From NCBI GenBank assembly GCA_022821845.1, contig JAJECT010000033.1, positions 40,803 through 104,802 on the forward strand: DNA of 64,000 nt. Reading direction: 5' to 3'. Under the pieces are notes generated by a model. It saw nothing but the letters and a program-made list of their open reading frames with translations. It was not told the DNA's origin and made no database searches. The DNA is from Rhodothermales bacterium. GTDB taxonomy: Bacteria > Bacteroidota > Rhodothermia > Rhodothermales > VXPQ01. The translations under genes and the position numbers were made by a program. Shown in pieces: positions 5,732 to 15,002 of this stretch; positions within the stretch are counted from its first letter, which is position 1, and each line of letters starts with the position of its first letter.

Positions 5732-6481
5732 CTACAGGGAAATGCCGAAAACGAGGAAGCTCTTCTCGGCCGTGGGGTTCATAATGTACGAAATGCTTAC
5801 GGGCAGTTCGAACTTGTCCGTGATCGGGATGCTTTTCGAGGCGCTCAGCGCCCAGTCGATGATGCTGAAGCCGTCGGTGCCGTACCAGTCGCTCTCGCCC
5901 GCGGAAGCCCCGATCCCGAAAGACATGTCCACGCCGCCCACGGCGAAGGGCATCGAGGCATTGATATACAGCGACTCATCCGGGTCGTTGTGCATATTGT
6001 ACGCCACATAGAGCGTCACCGGGAAGGATTCCGTCCCGGTGAAGGAGAAATAGGGCTCGATTACGTGTTGCCCGTCTTCGCCGAAGTCAAAGAATCCGAT
6101 GATTTCCTCGTTTTCTTCTTCCTCGTGGTCGTGTTCGTCTTCTTCGTGACCGTGCTCGTCTTCGTGCGCAACGGCGGCGTTCGGGAAGTAGTAATCCGTG
6201 ATCCCAATGGAAATGGGACCGTAGGAGTACCCGGCCCACAGGTCGTGTTCGTTGAAGCCGGCGGAAGCGGGGTTCGTGGCGTACGACGCCCAGGTGCCTA
6301 TCTCCAGTCCGTTGTAACTGAACGTGAGGGCGGGCTGCACGCTGGCGGATTCCCCGAAATCGATGCCTCGCCATACGTACCGGCTGACAAGGTCGGCGCC
6401 AAAGTCGAATTCCTGCGCGGAAGCAGGCAGGGACCAGGCGAGGGCGAGCGTTAGAAACAGGGGAGCAAGAAGCTTTTTCAT
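5732..6481 (-). CDS. Outer-membrane beta-barrel-like protein with His/Glu/Asp-rich loop
   Basis: Signal peptide MKKLLAPLFLTLALAWSLPASAQ; amphipathic strand pattern; VSRYVWRGIDFGESASVQP resembles TorF-type (TIGR02001) proteins; C-terminal FGISL; loop HEDEHGHEEDEHDHEEEENEE. Confidence 0.75.
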   Translation of the reverse strand: MKKLLAPLFLTLALAWSLPASAQEFDFGADLVSRYVWRGIDFGESASVQPALTFSYNGLEIGTWASYATNPASAGFNEHDLWAGYSYGPISIGITDYYFPNAAVAHEDEHGHEEDEHDHEEEENEEIIGFFDFGEDGQHVIEPYFSFTGTESFPVTLYVAYNMHNDPDESLYINASMPFAVGGVDMSFGIGASAGESDWYGTDGFSIIDWALSASKSIPITDKFELPVSISYIMNPTAEKSFLVFGISL

Positions 6482-6991: not shown

Positions 6992-7138
6992 ATGACGCAG
7001 CACTCCTTCAAGGCGATAGCGCTTCGGCGCGCCGCCAAGGGCGTTTCGAGCGCTCTGCGGACAGCGGCCCGCGTGGCCGACGGGATACTTGCGCCGGTGG
7101 TCTTCGTCCTTCCCGGTCTCGTTATTATTACGATTTAG
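6992..7138 (+). CDS. Candidate branched-chain amino acid leader peptide (48 aa)
   Basis: ATG..TAG encodes MTQHSFKAIALRRAAKGVSSALRTAARVADGILAPVVFVLPGLVIITI; 11 of the last 17 residues are I/L/V; lies upstream of ilvB. Not in the supplied ORF track (too short). Confidence 0.55.
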   Translation: MTQHSFKAIALRRAAKGVSSALRTAARVADGILAPVVFVLPGLVIITI

Positions 7139-7332
7139 CCAGGACCGGCCAATCCTTCGCACCTCTCCAGCATGCATGATGGCGTCAAGCGGGCAGTGAA
7201 GGAATTGGCCTTCGCCCCACGTTAATCCGATGCCCATGTACGCTCCCGAAGAAACGCGCCCGAACGTTGACGTCGGCGTTTCGTATTTTGTCAAGTCTGC
7301 CCGGCTTTTGCGCCGACGAGGCGCGTTCAACG
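7113..7332 (+). promoter_or_regulatory. Candidate ilv attenuator/structured 5' leader
   Basis: CCGGTC(7113-7118)/GACCGG(7143-7148); GGCCAATCCTTC(7147-7158)/GAAGGAATTGGCC(7198-7210); terminator-like GAAACG..CCGA/TCGG-CGTTTC (7251-7282) then GTATTTTG; competing CGTTGA-GTCGGCG(7265-7278)/CGCCGAC..TCAACG(7311-7332). Confidence 0.5.
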
Positions 7333-7371
7333 GAGCGCCACATTCACGAAGGACCAAACAGGTCGTAATCC

Positions 7372-9132
7372 ATGCCTGATATGCAAGCAAGCAGCATGAC
7401 GCACCATGCGCCGCCAGTGAACGGCGCGCAACGCATGAGCGGCGCGGAGATTTTTCTGCGCTCGCTGGACGCGGAAGGCGTAGAGGTCGTATTTGGCCAC
7501 CCCGGAGGGGCCGTGATCAAGATTTACGACGAGATGGCCCGCATCCAGCCGAAATTCAAGCATGTGCTGGTGCGGCACGAACAAGGCGGCGCGCACGCCG
7601 CCGAGGGGTACGCCAAGGCGACGGGCAAGGTCGGCACGGTGCTTGTCACCAGCGGACCCGGCGCCACGAACACGGTTACCGGCATAGCGGACGCCTATAT
7701 GGATTCCGTGCCCATTGTCGTGTTTACCGGACAAGTCCCGACCCAGTTGATCGGGAACGACGCGTTTCAGGAGTGCGACACGATAGGCATTACGCGCAGC
7801 ATCACGAAGCACAGTTTCCTGGTGCGCGACGTACGCGACCTGGCGGCGGCGGTGAGAAAGGCGTATCACATTGCGCGCACGGGTCGCCCGGGTCCGGTCG
7901 TGGTGGATCTGCCCAAGGACGTCCTCCTGGCCGAAACCGAGTTCGAATATCCAAAGGAAGTCAACTTGCGCGGCTACCGTTTCAAGGCCCGGGGAGACGA
8001 CGCCAAGATCCAGCGCGCCGCGGCCATGATCGCCGAGGCGGACAAGCCGCTTTTCTACGTGGGCGGCGGGGCCGTCGGCGCGGATGCGGCGGATGTGCTC
8101 ACCCGGATCGCCCGGACGGCGCGCATTCCGGTGACCACGACGCTGCACGGACTCGGCGCCTTTCCCGAGGACGACGAACTTTCGGTGGGCATGCTCGGGA
8201 TGCACGGCACATGGTACGCCAACATGGCCGTGCAGAACGCCGACCTCCTGATTGCGGTCGGCGCGCGGTTCGACGACCGGGTGACGGGCAAGCTCGAATC
8301 CTGGGCGCCCCACGCAAAGATCGTGCATATCGATATCGATCCGTCCTCGATCTCCAAGAATGTGTATGTGGATTGCGCCATCGTGGGCGACGTGCGCGAT
8401 GCGCTCATGCGCCTGGAGCCGCTTACAGGAGCGTGTCGTACGGAGGCATGGCTTGCGCAGGTGCAGGCCTGGAAGGCGGAATGTCCGCTGGTCTACGAAC
8501 AGGGGGACGGGCGCCTTCGGGCGCAATACGTGCTCGAACGGCTTCGGCGGCATACGAAAGGGGAGGCGATCGTGGTGACCGACGTGGGCCAGCATCAGAT
8601 GTGGGCTGCCCAGTATTTCCAGTTTTTGCATGCGCGTACGCACATTACGTCGGGCGGGCTCGGCACCATGGGTTTTTGTTTTCCCGCCGCGATGGGCGCC
8701 GCGTTCGGCCGGCCGGACAAGACGGTCGTTTCGATCAGCGGGGATGGCGGGTTCGTCATGAACGCCCAGGAACTGAGCGTCGCCGCGGCGCACGGACTGC
8801 CCATCAAGGTGGTCATCATCAACAACAAGTTCCTGGGCATGGTGCGGCAGTGGCAGGAGTTGTTTCACGACGAGCGCTTCAGCCATACCGACCTGTCCGA
8901 TACGAACCCGGATTTCGTCAAGCTGGCCGAGGCGCATCATTGCGTGGGCCTGCGCGCGGAAACGCCGGACGAGGTGGACGGCGTTATTCGGGAAGCCTGG
9001 GCCGTTTCCGACCGGCCCGCCGTGATGGAATTCCGCGTCGCCAAGGAGGAGATGGTGTTCCCGATGGTGCCTGCGGGCGCTTCCACGGACGAAATGATCA
9101 CGAAGCGCCTGACGCCCAACGCCTTCGTATGA
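7372..9132 (+). CDS. ilvB: Acetolactate synthase large subunit
   Basis: ThDP enzyme: EVVFGHPGGAVIKIYDEM, GTVLVTSGPGATNTVTGIADAYMDS, GDGGFVMNAQELSVAA..NNKFLGMVRQWQELF. Confidence 0.96.
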   Translation: MPDMQASSMTHHAPPVNGAQRMSGAEIFLRSLDAEGVEVVFGHPGGAVIKIYDEMARIQPKFKHVLVRHEQGGAHAAEGYAKATGKVGTVLVTSGPGATNTVTGIADAYMDSVPIVVFTGQVPTQLIGNDAFQECDTIGITRSITKHSFLVRDVRDLAAAVRKAYHIARTGRPGPVVVDLPKDVLLAETEFEYPKEVNLRGYRFKARGDDAKIQRAAAMIAEADKPLFYVGGGAVGADAADVLTRIARTARIPVTTTLHGLGAFPEDDELSVGMLGMHGTWYANMAVQNADLLIAVGARFDDRVTGKLESWAPHAKIVHIDIDPSSISKNVYVDCAIVGDVRDALMRLEPLTGACRTEAWLAQVQAWKAECPLVYEQGDGRLRAQYVLERLRRHTKGEAIVVTDVGQHQMWAAQYFQFLHARTHITSGGLGTMGFCFPAAMGAAFGRPDKTVVSISGDGGFVMNAQELSVAAAHGLPIKVVIINNKFLGMVRQWQELFHDERFSHTDLSDTNPDFVKLAEAHHCVGLRAETPDEVDGVIREAWAVSDRPAVMEFRVAKEEMVFPMVPAGASTDEMITKRLTPNAFV

Positions 9133-9157: not shown

Positions 9158-9736
9158 ATGAGCGAGCAAAACACACTGACCCCGCAACAGATTCTTCGGA
9201 AGAAGGCCCAGGGGGAGGCTATCGGGCCGGGCGAGCAAACGCACCGCCATCGGCATATTATCGCCGTGTTGCTTGAGAATTCGATTGGCGCGCTGAATCG
9301 CGTCGTCAATCTGTTCGCCGCGCGCGGTTTCAATCTCGAAAGCGTGACGGTGGGGGAAACGGACGACCCTTCGATTTCCCGCATGACCATCGCCACCACG
9401 GGAGAAAGCCGCATCATTGCGCAGGTGAACCGGCAATTGAACCGGCTGATCGATGTGCTGGAGGTGGAGGATTTGACGTCGGAGGAATACGTCGAGCGGG
9501 AGTTGTGCCTGCTGAAGGTGCCGTACGCCTCGGACAATCGGGTCGAACTCCTCGACACGCTCAAGATTTTTCAGGGCAAGGTCGTGGACGTCACGACGAA
9601 CACGATGACCTTCGAAATCACCGGCCCCGCCAAGAAGATCAATGCGTTTATCGGCATGATGAAGCGCTACGGCGTCGAAGAAATTGCGCGGAGCGGCCGC
9701 GTGGCCATGAAACGCGCGCTTCTTTTCGGCGATTGA
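9158..9736 (+). CDS. ilvN: Acetolactate synthase small (regulatory) subunit
   Basis: ACT domain: [46 protein letters not shown]; directly downstream of ilvB. Confidence 0.95.
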
Positions 9737-9806
9737 GCCGGTTTTTCGAGCGGTCCCGCGCGGCCGCGCGCCACTGCAAAACGACCATAACAACCACATA
9801 ATAACA

Positions 9807-10823
9807 ATGGGAGTAAACGTTCATTATCAGGCGAATCCCGATCTGGTCCGTTCGCGGCGGGTCGCGGTCATTGGATACGGAAGCCAGGGGCACGCCCATG
9901 CGCTGAACTTGCATGACAGCGGCGTGGACGTGGCGGTCGGATTGCGGGCGGGGTCGGCCTCGCGCGCGGAAGCCGCCGCCAGGGGGCTGCGCGTCATGGG
10001 TATTTCCGAAGCCGCCGCATGGGGGGACCTGGCGGTGTTGCTGGTGCCGGATCAGCATCAGAAGCGGGTGTACGAGGAGCATATGGTCGAGCATATGAAG
10101 CCCGGCAAATCCCTTGTTTTCGGGCATGGCTTCAATATTCATTACGGCCAGATTGCGCCGCCAGAAGGCGTTGACGTGTTCATGGTGGCCCCAAAGTCGC
10201 CGGGGCACCTGGCGCGCCGGGTGTTCGAGGAGGGCAAAGGCGTGCCCTGCCTGGTGGCGGTGGCGCAGGACGCTTCGGGGACGGCGCTGGACATGGCGCT
10301 GAGTTATGCGGACGGCATAGGCGGCATTCGGGCGGGCGTCATCGAAACGACTTTCAAGGACGAGACGGAGACCGATCTTTTCGGCGAACAGGCCGTGCTT
10401 TGCGGCGGCGCCGAGGAGTTGATCAAGGCCGGATTCGAAACGCTGACCGGCGCGGGGTATCCGCCCGAATTGGCGTATTTCGAATGTTTGCACGAACTCA
10501 AGCTGATCGTCGATCTGATTTACGACGGCGGGCTGGAGTACATGAACTATTCGATCAGCGATACCGCCGAGTACGGGAATTACACGCGCGGTCCGCGGAT
10601 CATCGACGAGGCGGCGCGCGAGCGCATGCGGGAGATTCTCGCCGAAGTGCAGGACGGGACGTTCGCGCGGGAATGGATTGCAGAGAACGAGGCCGGGGGC
10701 AAGCAGTTGCTCGCCTTGCGCGGCAGGTCCCGGGAGCATCCGATCGAGCAGATTGGCAAGCGGCTGCGCGGCATGATGAGTTGGCTGCGCGGCGAAGGAA
10801 ACAAAGAAGCGAACGCCGTATAA
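9807..10823 (+). CDS. ilvC: Ketol-acid reductoisomerase
   Basis: [60 protein letters not shown]. Confidence 0.96.
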
Positions 10824-10825
10824 CC

Positions 10826-11947
10826 TTGGCTGAAAGGAAAACATATCGCGTCGCCTGTTTGCCGGGGGACGGCGTCGGGCCGGAAGTGACCCGGGAGGCG
10901 CTGCGCGTTCTGGCGGCGGCGGGCGAGCGGTTCGGTTTCGCGCTGGCGCACGAAGAATTTCCCGTAGGCGGCAGCGCCATCGACGCGCTGGGCGCCCCGC
11001 TGCCGGAATCCGTCAAAGCGGCCTGCCTTGCGTCGGACGCCGTGCTGCTTGGCGCCGTTGGCGGGCCTGCCTGGGATGCGCTGCAAGGCGATTTGCGCCC
11101 GGAGGCCGGTTTGCTTGCGTTGCGCAAGGCACTGGGCGCGTACGCCAACCTGCGTCCGGTGGCGGTGCCGGATTTTCTGGCGGGCGCCTCGCCGCTCCGG
11201 CGGGAGGTGGTGGCGGGCACGGACATGATGATCGTGCGAGAACTGACCGGCGGCATTTATTTTTCGGGCCCCAAAGGGCCGGTCGAGGGAACAGAGGGCA
11301 AGGAAGCGCGCAACACGATGCGCTATTCGGAAGCGGAGATCGCGCGGATCGCGCAGGTGGCGTTTACCTGGGCGCGCCGGCGGCGGGGCCGGGTTACGTC
11401 CGTGGACAAGGCCAATGTGCTGGAGGTGTCGCAGCTATGGAGGGCGGTGGTGACCCGGGTGCGCGAGGCGGATTATCCCGACGTGGAACTGGAGCATTTG
11501 TATATCGATAACGCGGCCATGCAGATTGTGCGCCGCCCGTCGGATTTCGACGTGGTGGTTACGGCCAACCTGTTCGGCGATATCCTGTCCGACCTGGCCG
11601 CCACGCTGCCGGGTTCGCTGGGCCTGTTGCCGTCGGCTTCGGTAGGCGGCGCTACCGGGTTGTTCGAGCCTGTCCACGGCAGCGCGCCGGATATTGCCGG
11701 ACAGGGGAAGGCGAACCCCGCGGCGGCCATCCTGAGCGGCGCCATGATGCTCGAACAGTGGGGCGAGGCGGACGCGGCCCGGGCTATTCGGCGCGCCGTG
11801 AACGAAACGCTGGCCGAGGGCGCGCGCACGGCGGACATGCGGGAAGCCGGTTGCCGGGTTGTGTCTACCGGCGAGATGGGCGCCCGCATTGCTTCCCGCA
11901 TACGGCAGGAAACGGGTCGGAAGCAGCCCGTGGAGGCGGCGGCATGA
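10826..11947 (+). CDS. leuB: 3-isopropylmalate dehydrogenase
   Basis: TTG start proposed (LAERKTYRVACLPGDGVGPEVTREAL); ELTGGIYFS, NLFGDILSDLAATLPGSLGLLPSAS, EPVHGSAPDIAGQGKANP. Upstream part of ORF 10400 is an out-of-frame shadow of ilvC. Confidence 0.93.
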   Translation: MAERKTYRVACLPGDGVGPEVTREALRVLAAAGERFGFALAHEEFPVGGSAIDALGAPLPESVKAACLASDAVLLGAVGGPAWDALQGDLRPEAGLLALRKALGAYANLRPVAVPDFLAGASPLRREVVAGTDMMIVRELTGGIYFSGPKGPVEGTEGKEARNTMRYSEAEIARIAQVAFTWARRRRGRVTSVDKANVLEVSQLWRAVVTRVREADYPDVELEHLYIDNAAMQIVRRPSDFDVVVTANLFGDILSDLAATLPGSLGLLPSASVGGATGLFEPVHGSAPDIAGQGKANPAAAILSGAMMLEQWGEADAARAIRRAVNETLAEGARTADMREAGCRVVSTGEMGARIASRIRQETGRKQPVEAAA

Positions 11948-11989
11948 CGCGCCGCTGGATACATACCGTTTTCCCCGGTTTTCTTCGAC

Positions 11990-12078
11990 TTACAAGGCGC
12001 CCGACGCGATATGTGCAAGACGACATCGGTTCGTCGGCGTATCGGGCGCGTACGATCCCTTCCGTACTCCACTTGTAA
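11990..12078 (+). promoter_or_regulatory. Candidate structured RNA (three-way junction) between leuB and leuA
   Basis: TTACAAG(11990-11996)/CTTGTAA(12072-12078); GCGCCCGA(11997-12004)/TCGGGCGC(12042-12049); GTACG(12050-12054)/CGTAC(12063-12067); helices abut exactly. Confidence 0.4.
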
Positions 12079-12102
12079 AGAAACCGCCGAGAGAAATTCC
12101 CC

Positions 12103-13713
12103 ATGAAAGACAAGGTAACCATATTCGACACCACATTGCGCGACGGCGAACAGGCGCCGGGCGCATCCATGACGATTCACGAGAAGGTCCGCATTGCCCG
12201 GCAACTCGTGAAGCTCGACGTGGACGTGATTGAGGCCGGATTTCCGATTTCGTCTCCGGCCCAGTTCGAAGCCGTGGCAAGCATCGTGCGCGACGTGCCA
12301 GGACCGGTGATTTGCGCGCTTGCCCGCGCGCTCGAGAACGACGTACATGCGGCGGGCAAGTCGCTGGCCGGAGGCAAACGGACGCGGATTCATACGTTCA
12401 TCGCCACGAGCGACATTCACATAGACGCGAAATTCGGCAGCGACCGATACGGCGCGACGCTCGCAGAGAAGCGGCAGAGCGTGGTGCGCATGGCGCGCGA
12501 GGCGGTGCAACTGGCCCGCACCTATACCGACGACATAGAATTCAGCGCGGAGGACGCCGGGCGCACGGAACACGGATTCTTGTGCGAGGTGATCGCAGCG
12601 GCGATAGCGGAGGGCGCCACGACCGTCAATATTCCCGATACGACCGGGTATTGCACGCCCAGCGAGTACGCCCGTATGTTCGAAGCGGTGCGGGAGGGCG
12701 TGCCGTTGGCCGAAAAGGTCGTACTCTCGGCCCATTGCCACGACGATCTCGGCCTGGCCGTGGCGAATTCCATCGCCGCCGTATGCGCGGGCGCCCGGCA
12801 GATCGAGTGCACGATCAACGGTATTGGCGAGCGAGCGGGCAACGCCGCGCTGGAGGAAGTGGTGATGGCGCTGCGCGTTCGGGGCGAGCAATTCGGCGCA
12901 GATACGCGCATCCAGGCCACGCACCTTACGGAAACGAGCCGCATGGTGTCCGTAGCGACGGGATTTCCGGTGCCGCCGAACAAGGCGATCGTGGGCCGCA
13001 ACGCGTTTAGCCACGAAGCCGGCATTCATCAGCACGGGGTGCTGAAACGGCGGGATACGTACGAAATCATGCAGGCGGAGGACGTGGGTCAGACGAGCGA
13101 GCAGATACGGCTGGGCCGGCATTCCGGGCGCCACGGCTTTTTCAGCCGCCTGAAGCGGATAGGCTTGCACGTGGAGGAATCGCGCAAGGACATTCTCTAC
13201 GAGTTATTCGTGCGGCTTGCGGATCGCAAGAAAGAAATCCACGACGCGGACCTGATTCATCTTGTCCAGGGGAATGCGGAGCATGCCGTTTTGCAGCATT
13301 ACCGGCTTGATCACTTGTCCGTGAAGGTCGATACGGGCAAGCGCCCCCAGGCGGAAGTCTCCGTGTTCAATGTGTCCGAAGAGGAGAAGTTGACTGCCGA
13401 GGCCACCGGCGACGGGCCTGTGGATGCGGTGTACCGGGCCATCAACCATGCCCTTGGCTGCTCGCGCAAGCTGGAAAGTTATTCTATTCGATCCGTTTCC
13501 GAGGGGGCCGGCGCAATTGGCGAAGTCACCGTGCTTGTTCGGGAAAGCGGCGCCTTTTTCAGAGGGCAGGCGCAAAACACCGATGTGATCCGCGCTTCCG
13601 CGGACGCGTATATCGATGCGCTCAACAATCTCGAAACCTGGCGATCCGACGAGGAGAACATGACCTTCGTCGGCAATGGCATCATGAGCTCGTTCGAAGG
13701 AGGCGTAGCATGA
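12103..13713 (+). CDS. leuA: 2-isopropylmalate synthase
   Basis: [71 protein letters not shown]-terminal LeuA regulatory domain. Confidence 0.95.
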   Translation: MKDKVTIFDTTLRDGEQAPGASMTIHEKVRIARQLVKLDVDVIEAGFPISSPAQFEAVASIVRDVPGPVICALARALENDVHAAGKSLAGGKRTRIHTFIATSDIHIDAKFGSDRYGATLAEKRQSVVRMAREAVQLARTYTDDIEFSAEDAGRTEHGFLCEVIAAAIAEGATTVNIPDTTGYCTPSEYARMFEAVREGVPLAEKVVLSAHCHDDLGLAVANSIAAVCAGARQIECTINGIGERAGNAALEEVVMALRVRGEQFGADTRIQATHLTETSRMVSVATGFPVPPNKAIVGRNAFSHEAGIHQHGVLKRRDTYEIMQAEDVGQTSEQIRLGRHSGRHGFFSRLKRIGLHVEESRKDILYELFVRLADRKKEIHDADLIHLVQGNAEHAVLQHYRLDHLSVKVDTGKRPQAEVSVFNVSEEEKLTAEATGDGPVDAVYRAINHALGCSRKLESYSIRSVSEGAGAIGEVTVLVRESGAFFRGQAQNTDVIRASADAYIDALNNLETWRSDEENMTFVGNGIMSSFEGGVA

Positions 13714-15002
13714 CGATTACGGAAAAAATACTGGCGCGCCGCGCAGGGCGGGACCGGGTGGCTCCCGGCGACAACATCTGGGTAGACGTGGACATTCTTA
13801 TGACCCACGACGTGTGCGGTCCTCCGACCATCGACATTTTCCGTCGCGAATTCGGGGCCGACGCCGCGCCGTGGGACAAGGAAAAGCTGGTGATCATTCC
13901 CGATCACTACATTTTTACGAAAAACCACCACGCAAACCGGAACGTGGAGTTGTTGCGGGCCTTCGCCGCCGAGCACGATCTCCCGTATTACTACGATCCG
14001 GGGACGCCGAACTACAAGGGGGTATGCCACATGGCGCTGGCCGAGGAAGGGTTCAACCTGCCGGGTTCGCTGCTGATCGGGACGGACAGCCATACCTGTA
14101 CTTCCGGCGCGTTCGGGATGTTTTCGACCGGCGTGGGGAACACGGATGCGGCGCTGATCATGGGCACCGGGAAAATATGGCTCAAAGTCCCCGAAACGAT
14201 GCGGTTCGTGTTCGAGGGGTCGTTGCCGCCGTACCTCATGGCCAAGGACCTGATCCTTCAGGTTATCGGCGATATCGGGACGGACGGGGGGACGTACCGC
14301 GCGCTTGAGTTCGACGGGGAAGCGGTCTACGACTTGCCGGTGCACGAGCGTATGACGCTGACGAACATGGCCATCGAGGCGGGAGGCAAAAACGGGATCA
14401 TTCCCCCGGACGAAAAAACCTTCGAGTACGTTCGGGAGCGTACCGACAGGGCGTTCGAACCGGTTTACGGCGATCCTGGCGCGCGCTGCCATTCGGTCCG
14501 GCGTTATCGCGTCGAGGAGATTGAGCCGCTGGTGGCCAAGCCGCACAGCCCGGACAATCGGGCGACCGTGTCGGAAGTCGCCGGGACGCGCCTGGACCGG
14601 GCGTACGTGGGCAGTTGCACGGGAGGCAAGCTGGAAGATTTCGTGGCCGCGGCGAACATTCTGCGGGGACAAGAGGTCGCGATCGATACCTACATCGTGC
14701 CCGCGACAACCTGGATTGGCGAGCAGTTGCACTCGACCCGGGTCGAAGGCGACACCTTGTACGAAATTTTCGAGCGGTCCGGGTGCAAGCTGGGACAGGC
14801 TTCCTGCGCGGCCTGTCTTGGCGGACCGTCGGATACGTTCGGCAGGACGCACGGCTCGGAAGTCGTGATTTCCACCACGAACCGGAATTTTCCCGGACGC
14901 ATGGGCAGCAAGCAGGCTTCGGTTTATCTGGCGTCGCCCTATACGGTGGCGGCGTCGGCGCTTTCCGGAAGGATTACGGATCCTCGCGAGGCGCTGGTAT
15001 GA
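13710..15002 (+). CDS. leuC: 3-isopropylmalate dehydratase large subunit (shorter-type LeuC, 430 aa)
   Basis: Aconitase-family motifs: GTDSHTCTSGAFGMFSTGVGNTD, GSCTGGKLEDF, ASCAACLGG, STTNRNFPGRMGS. Confidence 0.93.
   Translation: MTITEKILARRAGRDRVAPGDNIWVDVDILMTHDVCGPPTIDIFRREFGADAAPWDKEKLVIIPDHYIFTKNHHANRNVELLRAFAAEHDLPYYYDPGTPNYKGVCHMALAEEGFNLPGSLLIGTDSHTCTSGAFGMFSTGVGNTDAALIMGTGKIWLKVPETMRFVFEGSLPPYLMAKDLILQVIGDIGTDGGTYRALEFDGEAVYDLPVHERMTLTNMAIEAGGKNGIIPPDEKTFEYVRERTDRAFEPVYGDPGARCHSVRRYRVEEIEPLVAKPHSPDNRATVSEVAGTRLDRAYVGSCTGGKLEDFVAAANILRGQEVAIDTYIVPATTWIGEQLHSTRVEGDTLYEIFERSGCKLGQASCAACLGGPSDTFGRTHGSEVVISTTNRNFPGRMGSKQASVYLASPYTVAASALSGRITDPREALV

Follow-up and report, generated by a model that had tools for sequence, protein, structure and literature searches.

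A putative leader-peptide attenuator of branched-chain amino acid genes in Rhodothermales, another Bacteroidota order and Calditrichota, with translation initiation as its predicted output

Attenuation of ilv operons by leader peptides is textbook knowledge in enterobacteria and is also known in Actinobacteria. Older comparative work on attenuation reportedly mentions Bacteroidetes/Chlorobi. The Corynebacterium ilvB-II, ilvB-OMG and Leptospira ilvB motifs have an upstream ORF (uORF) rich in branched-chain amino acid (BCAA) codons in front of ilvB, and attenuation has been proposed for them; ilvB-II carries an intrinsic terminator, and ilvB-OMG is spread over several phyla (PMC10272879). In the LEU element of Actinobacteria, a leader rich in leucine adjoins leuA, and RNA structure is present at the Shine-Dalgarno box (PMC1262725). 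The Veillonella ilvD motif is confined to that genus (PMC8632094). For Flavobacterium psychrophilum, the main text of one study gives clues to transcription attenuation and leader peptides before amino-acid operons; these are Bacteroidota leader peptides like ours, and the motif found here does not appear in that main text (PMC9723704). No description of such a family in Bacteroidota was found in the open-access literature.

The element analysed here lies upstream of ilvB in a Rhodothermales genome, within a 64,000-nucleotide stretch of DNA (the window, Table 1). It resembles the enterobacterial ilvGMEDA and ilvBN attenuators in its I/L/V-rich leader, in its 2:3 and 3:4 pairings, which both use region 3 and exclude each other, and in its position upstream of BCAA genes. 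However, it differs from them in its leader of about 54 codons with the control codons packed at the end, in having neither a conserved U-tract terminator nor a conserved 1:2 pairing, and in its predicted output, the start codon of the ORF that follows. The ilvB-II, ilvB-OMG and Leptospira ilvB motifs, compared by their descriptions, share the BCAA-rich uORF before ilvB (PMC10272879). In the LEU element a run of leucine codons forms a pseudoknot with the Shine-Dalgarno box (PMC1262725), whereas here, in predicted folds, the partner of the start region is the loop that separates arms 2 and 3. The erm-type translational attenuators (ErmCL) are alike in that stalling on a leader ORF refolds the RNA and frees the next start codon. 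Their signal is a drug-bound ribosome, whereas the signal here would be a shortage of charged tRNA, and the targets are biosynthetic genes.

Table 1. Features of the element and its neighbourhood in the window
Feature	Position	Strand	Remarks
TorF-like putative porin gene	5732-6481	other strand	points away
ORF1, leader peptide	6992-7138	+	48 codons and TAG; translation MTQHSFKAIALRRAAKGVSSALRTAARVADGILAPVVFVLPGLVIITI*
Control codons (region 1)	7085-7135	+	I/L/V in 11 of the last 17 ORF1 residues
Region 2, 5' arm of the conserved stem, GGUCAAUCC-type	7147-7158	+	covariation; 8 nt past the ORF1 stop
Segment b, in the 2:3 loop	7168-7186	+	pairs with b' as predicted sequestor; minimum-energy fold
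Inner 3:4 hairpin, 5' side GTGAAGG	7196-7202	+	predicted; overlaps region 3 and competes with 2:3
Region 3, 3' arm of the conserved stem, GGAUUGACC-type	7198-7210	+	covariation; R2 match 7103-7213
Inner 3:4 hairpin, 3' side CCTTCGC	7209-7215	+	
Segment b', GATGCCCATGTACGCT	7229-7244	+	holds both ORF2 ATGs; predicted to be occluded when b:b' forms
ORF2, candidate second uORF	7236-7379	+	47 codons (alternative ATG 7230); stop TGA 7377-7379 overlaps ilvB ATG
Terminator-like hairpin and TATTTT, inside ORF2	7262-7292	+	genus-specific; in 6/6 genus members, none in other Rhodothermales families
ilvB, acetolactate synthase large subunit, regulated gene	7372-9132	+	TIGR00118
Rest of operon	9158-15002	+	ilvN 9158-9736, ilvC 9807-10823
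Rest of operon, continued		+	leuB about 10826-11947, leuA 12103-13713, leuC 13710-15002

A sequence-only reading of the window had pointed to an unlisted ORF with an I/L/V-rich end as a candidate leader peptide. Both the ORF and its biased end are indeed present, ahead of the genes ilvB-ilvN-ilvC-leuB-leuA-leuC. ORF1 is kept in all six members of the window's genus and in 72 elements overall. Across these 72 elements, I/L/V make up 58-99% at positions 2-18 from the leader stop, ATT alone accounts for 27% of the last 14 leader codons, and a Gly-stop end terminates the leader in 46. The leader is about 54 codons long (interquartile range 52-57), with an ATG at 40-70 codons in 69 elements, and its stop lies 4-10 nt before arm 2 in all 72. 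Leader length and much of the leader itself sit outside the covariance model, which spans only the last dozen codons. Protein-level constraint on ORF1 is weak within the genus (pN/pS 0.69, against 0.74-0.94 in the wrong frames), and the ORF has no Pfam match. The leaders of distant families share a loose motif (e.g., K/E-G-I-A-V or RVVV) about 28-36 residues before the stop; together with the near-constant leader length, this may point to some function of the nascent chain.

The 12-bp stem described by the same reading is likewise present downstream of ORF1 as GGCCAATCCTTC and GAAGGAATTGGCC, with one bulged A. When relatives were compared, as that reading had advised, both the I/L/V-rich ORF and this 2:3 stem proved to be conserved, and the stem covaries. 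In the 72 elements, arms 2 and 3 are paired in 97.7% of cells, with double changes at 8 of 10 pairs; this level was reached in none of 500 shuffles and is far above that of slid versions. Covariation was also computed on a set of 35 sequences. The arms are closely alike across families (GGCCAAUCC/GGAUUGGCC, GGUCAAUCCC/GGGAUUGACC and GUCAAUCCC/GGGAUUGAC), and for a pure helix the degree of sequence conservation in the stem is unusual. The conserved TTGAC of arm 3 was also considered as a promoter, an idea that was dropped because arms 2 and 3 covary. The proposed pairing of CCGGTC within the control codons with GACCGG (7113-7118/7143-7148) exists and is used in the minimum-energy fold of the window, but it is not conserved across the family. 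Such 1:2 pairing was no better than in codon-shuffled controls across the family (median p 0.39), with p about 0.05 in two genus members and 0.19-0.29 in the other four, and it was therefore rejected as a family feature.

The distribution of the family, which the sequence-only reading had not addressed, was mapped with two covariance models built here, R1 and R2. R1 matched in 34 of 113 genomes of the order, including many of family f14 (upstream of ilvB) and several upstream of ilvD, and in four genomes outside the order. An ORF ending in I/L/V was correctly placed at each of 19 further loci inspected. R2 matched in 58 of 146 genomes of another Bacteroidota order and in 22 of 245 genomes of that order's class. 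The element was also found in the Calditrichota MAG DRQG01 (Caldithrix abyssi). In the window R2 has a sole site (E 7.5e-19), and the best other site in the whole genome has E 0.5. Where it could be identified, the next gene was ilvB, ilvD or, once, leuB. Upstream of ilvB, the I/L/V-ending ORF occurs in all six genus members, whose closest representative to the window genome is the MAG JAJDWX01 (IlvB 99% identical), in all seven members of family f3, which includes a Rhodothermus sp. MAG, and in single genomes of f8 and f9. Weak model matches were obtained for the Bacteroidetes MAG L033 and for two Balneolales MAGs. The latter, L036 and L047, have the same layout upstream of ilvB with a divergent stem (CCAGAGGUCA/UGACCUCUGG); the family is therefore wider than the models show. 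At L234-L236 (family f34) the leader matches, the arms are GGUUAUUCCC/GGGAAUAACC, and L235 and L236 have an ilvB-like ORF farther downstream. Upstream of ORF1, the f3 alignment shows TTGACA and, after it, a conserved TTAATTAG at loci L007-L013. This candidate promoter would put the leader on the transcript.

Region 3 can enter either of two mutually exclusive helices, 2:3, which is supported by covariation, and 3:4, which is a prediction. It opens with GGG, whose partner is either the CCC of arm 2 or a CCC just downstream. The latter pairing gives a small 3:4 hairpin with lineage-dependent outer pairs (GUGAAGG/CCUUCAC, CCGGGG/CCCCGG, CGAGGGG/CCCCUCG or UUUAGGG/CCCUAAA). Over 11 group medians, this inner hairpin exceeded both controls, natural windows (Fisher p about 1e-5) and shuffled sequences (0.012). 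In folds of Rhodothermales elements it is enclosed by a b:b' pairing around the next start. In the window, CAGCAUGCAUGAUGGCGUC is predicted to pair with GAUGCCCAUGUACGCU, and in f14 CAGGUAUCG with CGAUGCCUG, together with CGAUGAC and GUCAUCG. In f9, GCAUAGC would pair with GCUAUGU and GCAUAGU with ACUAUGC, and in f3 a b:b' helix of about 14 bp would cover GUGAGGU and the bases up to the ilvB AUG. Segment b is kept in all six genus members with one-sided changes only, and b:b' has almost no double compensatory changes within families. In principle, a pseudoknot could accommodate the 2:3 stem and b:b' at the same time.

In the Rhodothermales and Calditrichota elements, the alternative structure is predicted to occlude the next start codon or Shine-Dalgarno region, as in a translational attenuator. 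In 31 such elements, the mean unpaired probability of the start region was 0.60 with 2:3 forced and 0.31 with arm 2 masked, and the change in accessibility exceeded loop-shuffled controls in 30; p-values over elements are optimistic, since elements within a family are not independent. Segment b' (L147) was predicted to be unpaired at 0.73 in the ON state and 0.33 in the OFF state, and the two states of the window are near-equal in energy (-31.3 and -32.2 kcal/mol). The next start codon lies 11-28 nt past arm 3 in most of these elements. Judged by duplex energy alone, direct pairing of the loop with the start was significant against shuffled loops (p 2e-6 over groups) but not against natural windows of the same genes (p 0.12), and a stricter test for ungapped loop-to-start helices was marginal (0.04 and 0.15). 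The case for burial of the start therefore rests on the accessibility calculation. In the other Bacteroidota order, whose genomes are low in GC, the accessibility switch was not significant against the control (p 0.25); in that order, a conserved AUCUGAAG upstream is often the pairing partner of the Shine-Dalgarno region.

In the window's genus the start codons predicted to be buried are those of ORF2; neither ORF2 nor this burial figured in the sequence-only reading. Relative to the first base of the ilvB start codon, the end of ORF2 lies 8 nt downstream in five members and 3 nt upstream in the sixth. ORF2 shows no purifying selection on the protein and no excess of synonymous change, and was rejected as a conserved protein on the latter ground. 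With its protein unconstrained, the role of ORF2, if any, is therefore in being translated. In f14 the next ORF is also small and, by reading of the DNA, ends near the ilvB start.

Inside ORF2, a hairpin stem at 7262-7281 is followed by GTATTTTG. The hairpin with its T-rich tail had been noted earlier as 7251-7290, a span wider than the actual stem. The second stem said to exclude it (7265-7278/7311-7332) did not hold up, as its 3' arm is shared by the window genome and its closest relative alone, and the other four members are unrelated there. Terminator-like sites were found in 9 of 68 elements, against 1.4 expected in all 68: in all six elements of the window's genus and in 3 of the 62 others. 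In the window's genus the site is not formed by 3:4, and across the 68 elements 3:4 does not take the form of an intrinsic terminator with a U-tract. In the low-GC order, 3:4 had seemed to finish with a run of U, but this failed on examination. A U-tract terminator was thus rejected as a general output outside the window's genus. The earlier proposal of an attenuator analogous to the enterobacterial ones therefore stands in part: its stalling leader-peptide sensor is strongly supported by the uORF, the spacing, the covarying stem and the linkage to ilvB, ilvD or leuB, but a terminator/antiterminator output is not the conserved mechanism, with 3 of 62 elements set against start occlusion in 30 of 31.

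As judged from sequence comparison, the locus very probably encodes a leader-peptide attenuator responding to BCAAs, and in Rhodothermales its main conserved output is probably translation initiation. Our overall reading, which we hold with a probability of roughly two in three, joins these points: a ribosome-sensing BCAA attenuator acts on translation initiation and, in the window's genus, does so through an ORF2 coupled to ilvB. A ribosome translating ORF1 would meet the I/L/V codons just ahead of the stop. When charged Ile, Leu or Val tRNA is short, we infer that it stalls there and leaves arm 2 free, so that 2:3 would form, region 3 and segment b would be tied up, and the next start would be open (ON). 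When amino acids are sufficient, the ribosome would reach the stop, and its leading edge would cover the beginning of arm 2; 3:4, composed of the inner GGG:CCC hairpin and b:b', would then bury the start codon (OFF). In the window's genus this would be the start of ORF2, whose translation is probably coupled to that of ilvB because its stop overlaps the ilvB start. An untranslated ORF2 may let the internal terminator-like hairpin form and add transcriptional polarity, and in this genus a terminator may thus act in addition. If this reading is true, a single RNA element monitors BCAA supply in Rhodothermales, in a second Bacteroidota order and in Calditrichota, and what it controls, at least in Rhodothermales, is translation and not transcription. 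Such an element would supply a regulatory layer so far missing for these bacteria, together with a covariance model for annotation, and would offer a natural series for how one sensor joins different outputs.

Classical transcription attenuation, in which the leader peptide controls the intrinsic terminator upstream of ilvB (7262-7281 and TATTTT), is unlikely. It would fit the I/L/V leader and the hairpin and U-run of all six genus members, whose stem is kept through G-U/G-C changes, but the site is missing from other families, its U-tract is weak and interrupted, the alternative arm at 7311-7332 is unconserved, and the hairpin lies inside ORF2. Moreover, its 5' arm has no overlap with region 3, so that 2:3 is not directly exclusive of the hairpin. 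Less likely again is leader-peptide control with Rho-dependent termination or mRNA decay as the output, where 3:4 or an untranslated ORF2 would expose RNA. The lack of a U-tract in most elements and the non-significant start occlusion in the low-GC order are consistent with such an output; the predicted change in start accessibility in nearly all Rhodothermales and Calditrichota elements and the short distance from arm 3 to the start codon in most of them argue against it.

The conservation of the stem sequence could also suggest a riboswitch or a protein-binding element with GGUCAAUCC/GGAUUGACC as its recognition site. This is highly improbable, considering that Rfam 15, including the T-box and the ppGpp riboswitch, gave no match at the gathering score or, on 15 loci, at E up to 10, that no conserved unpaired core was seen in the loop, and that every element has a uORF with I/L/V codons. 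The least probable explanation is that ORF1 encodes an ordinary hydrophobic small membrane protein lying beside the ilv genes by chance, the stem being unrelated to it. Its hydrophobic C-terminal stretch of about 18 residues and the near-constant leader length would suit such a protein. However, the covarying stem always follows within 4-10 nt, the next gene is one of the three named above wherever identified, protein constraint in the genus is weak, and Pfam gave no match.

A broader scheme is tentative and, in our judgement, rather less probable than its negation: an ancient attenuator family common to Bacteroidota and Calditrichota, in which a single conserved sensor stem is joined to expression platforms that differ between lineages. 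Most Rhodothermales would bury the start of ilvB or ilvD. The window's genus would use a two-uORF relay, with the BCAA-sensing leader gating an ORF2 that is translationally coupled to ilvB and that, by being translated, also controls the internal terminator. At L173-L238, a conserved UAUAUCUGAAG was found 10-30 nt past arm 3, and in the low-GC order it can pair with UUCAGAGG over the ilvD Shine-Dalgarno region, a possible separate expression platform in that order. At four loci upstream of ilvB in the same order (L203, L208, L218 and L219; weaker in L210), the first leader is followed by an ORF whose beginning resembles ilvD (MRS/VRS) and whose end is I-rich (e.g., IIILNLIIPGI*). This suggests a second leader in tandem, possibly marking a site where ilvD was lost or moved.
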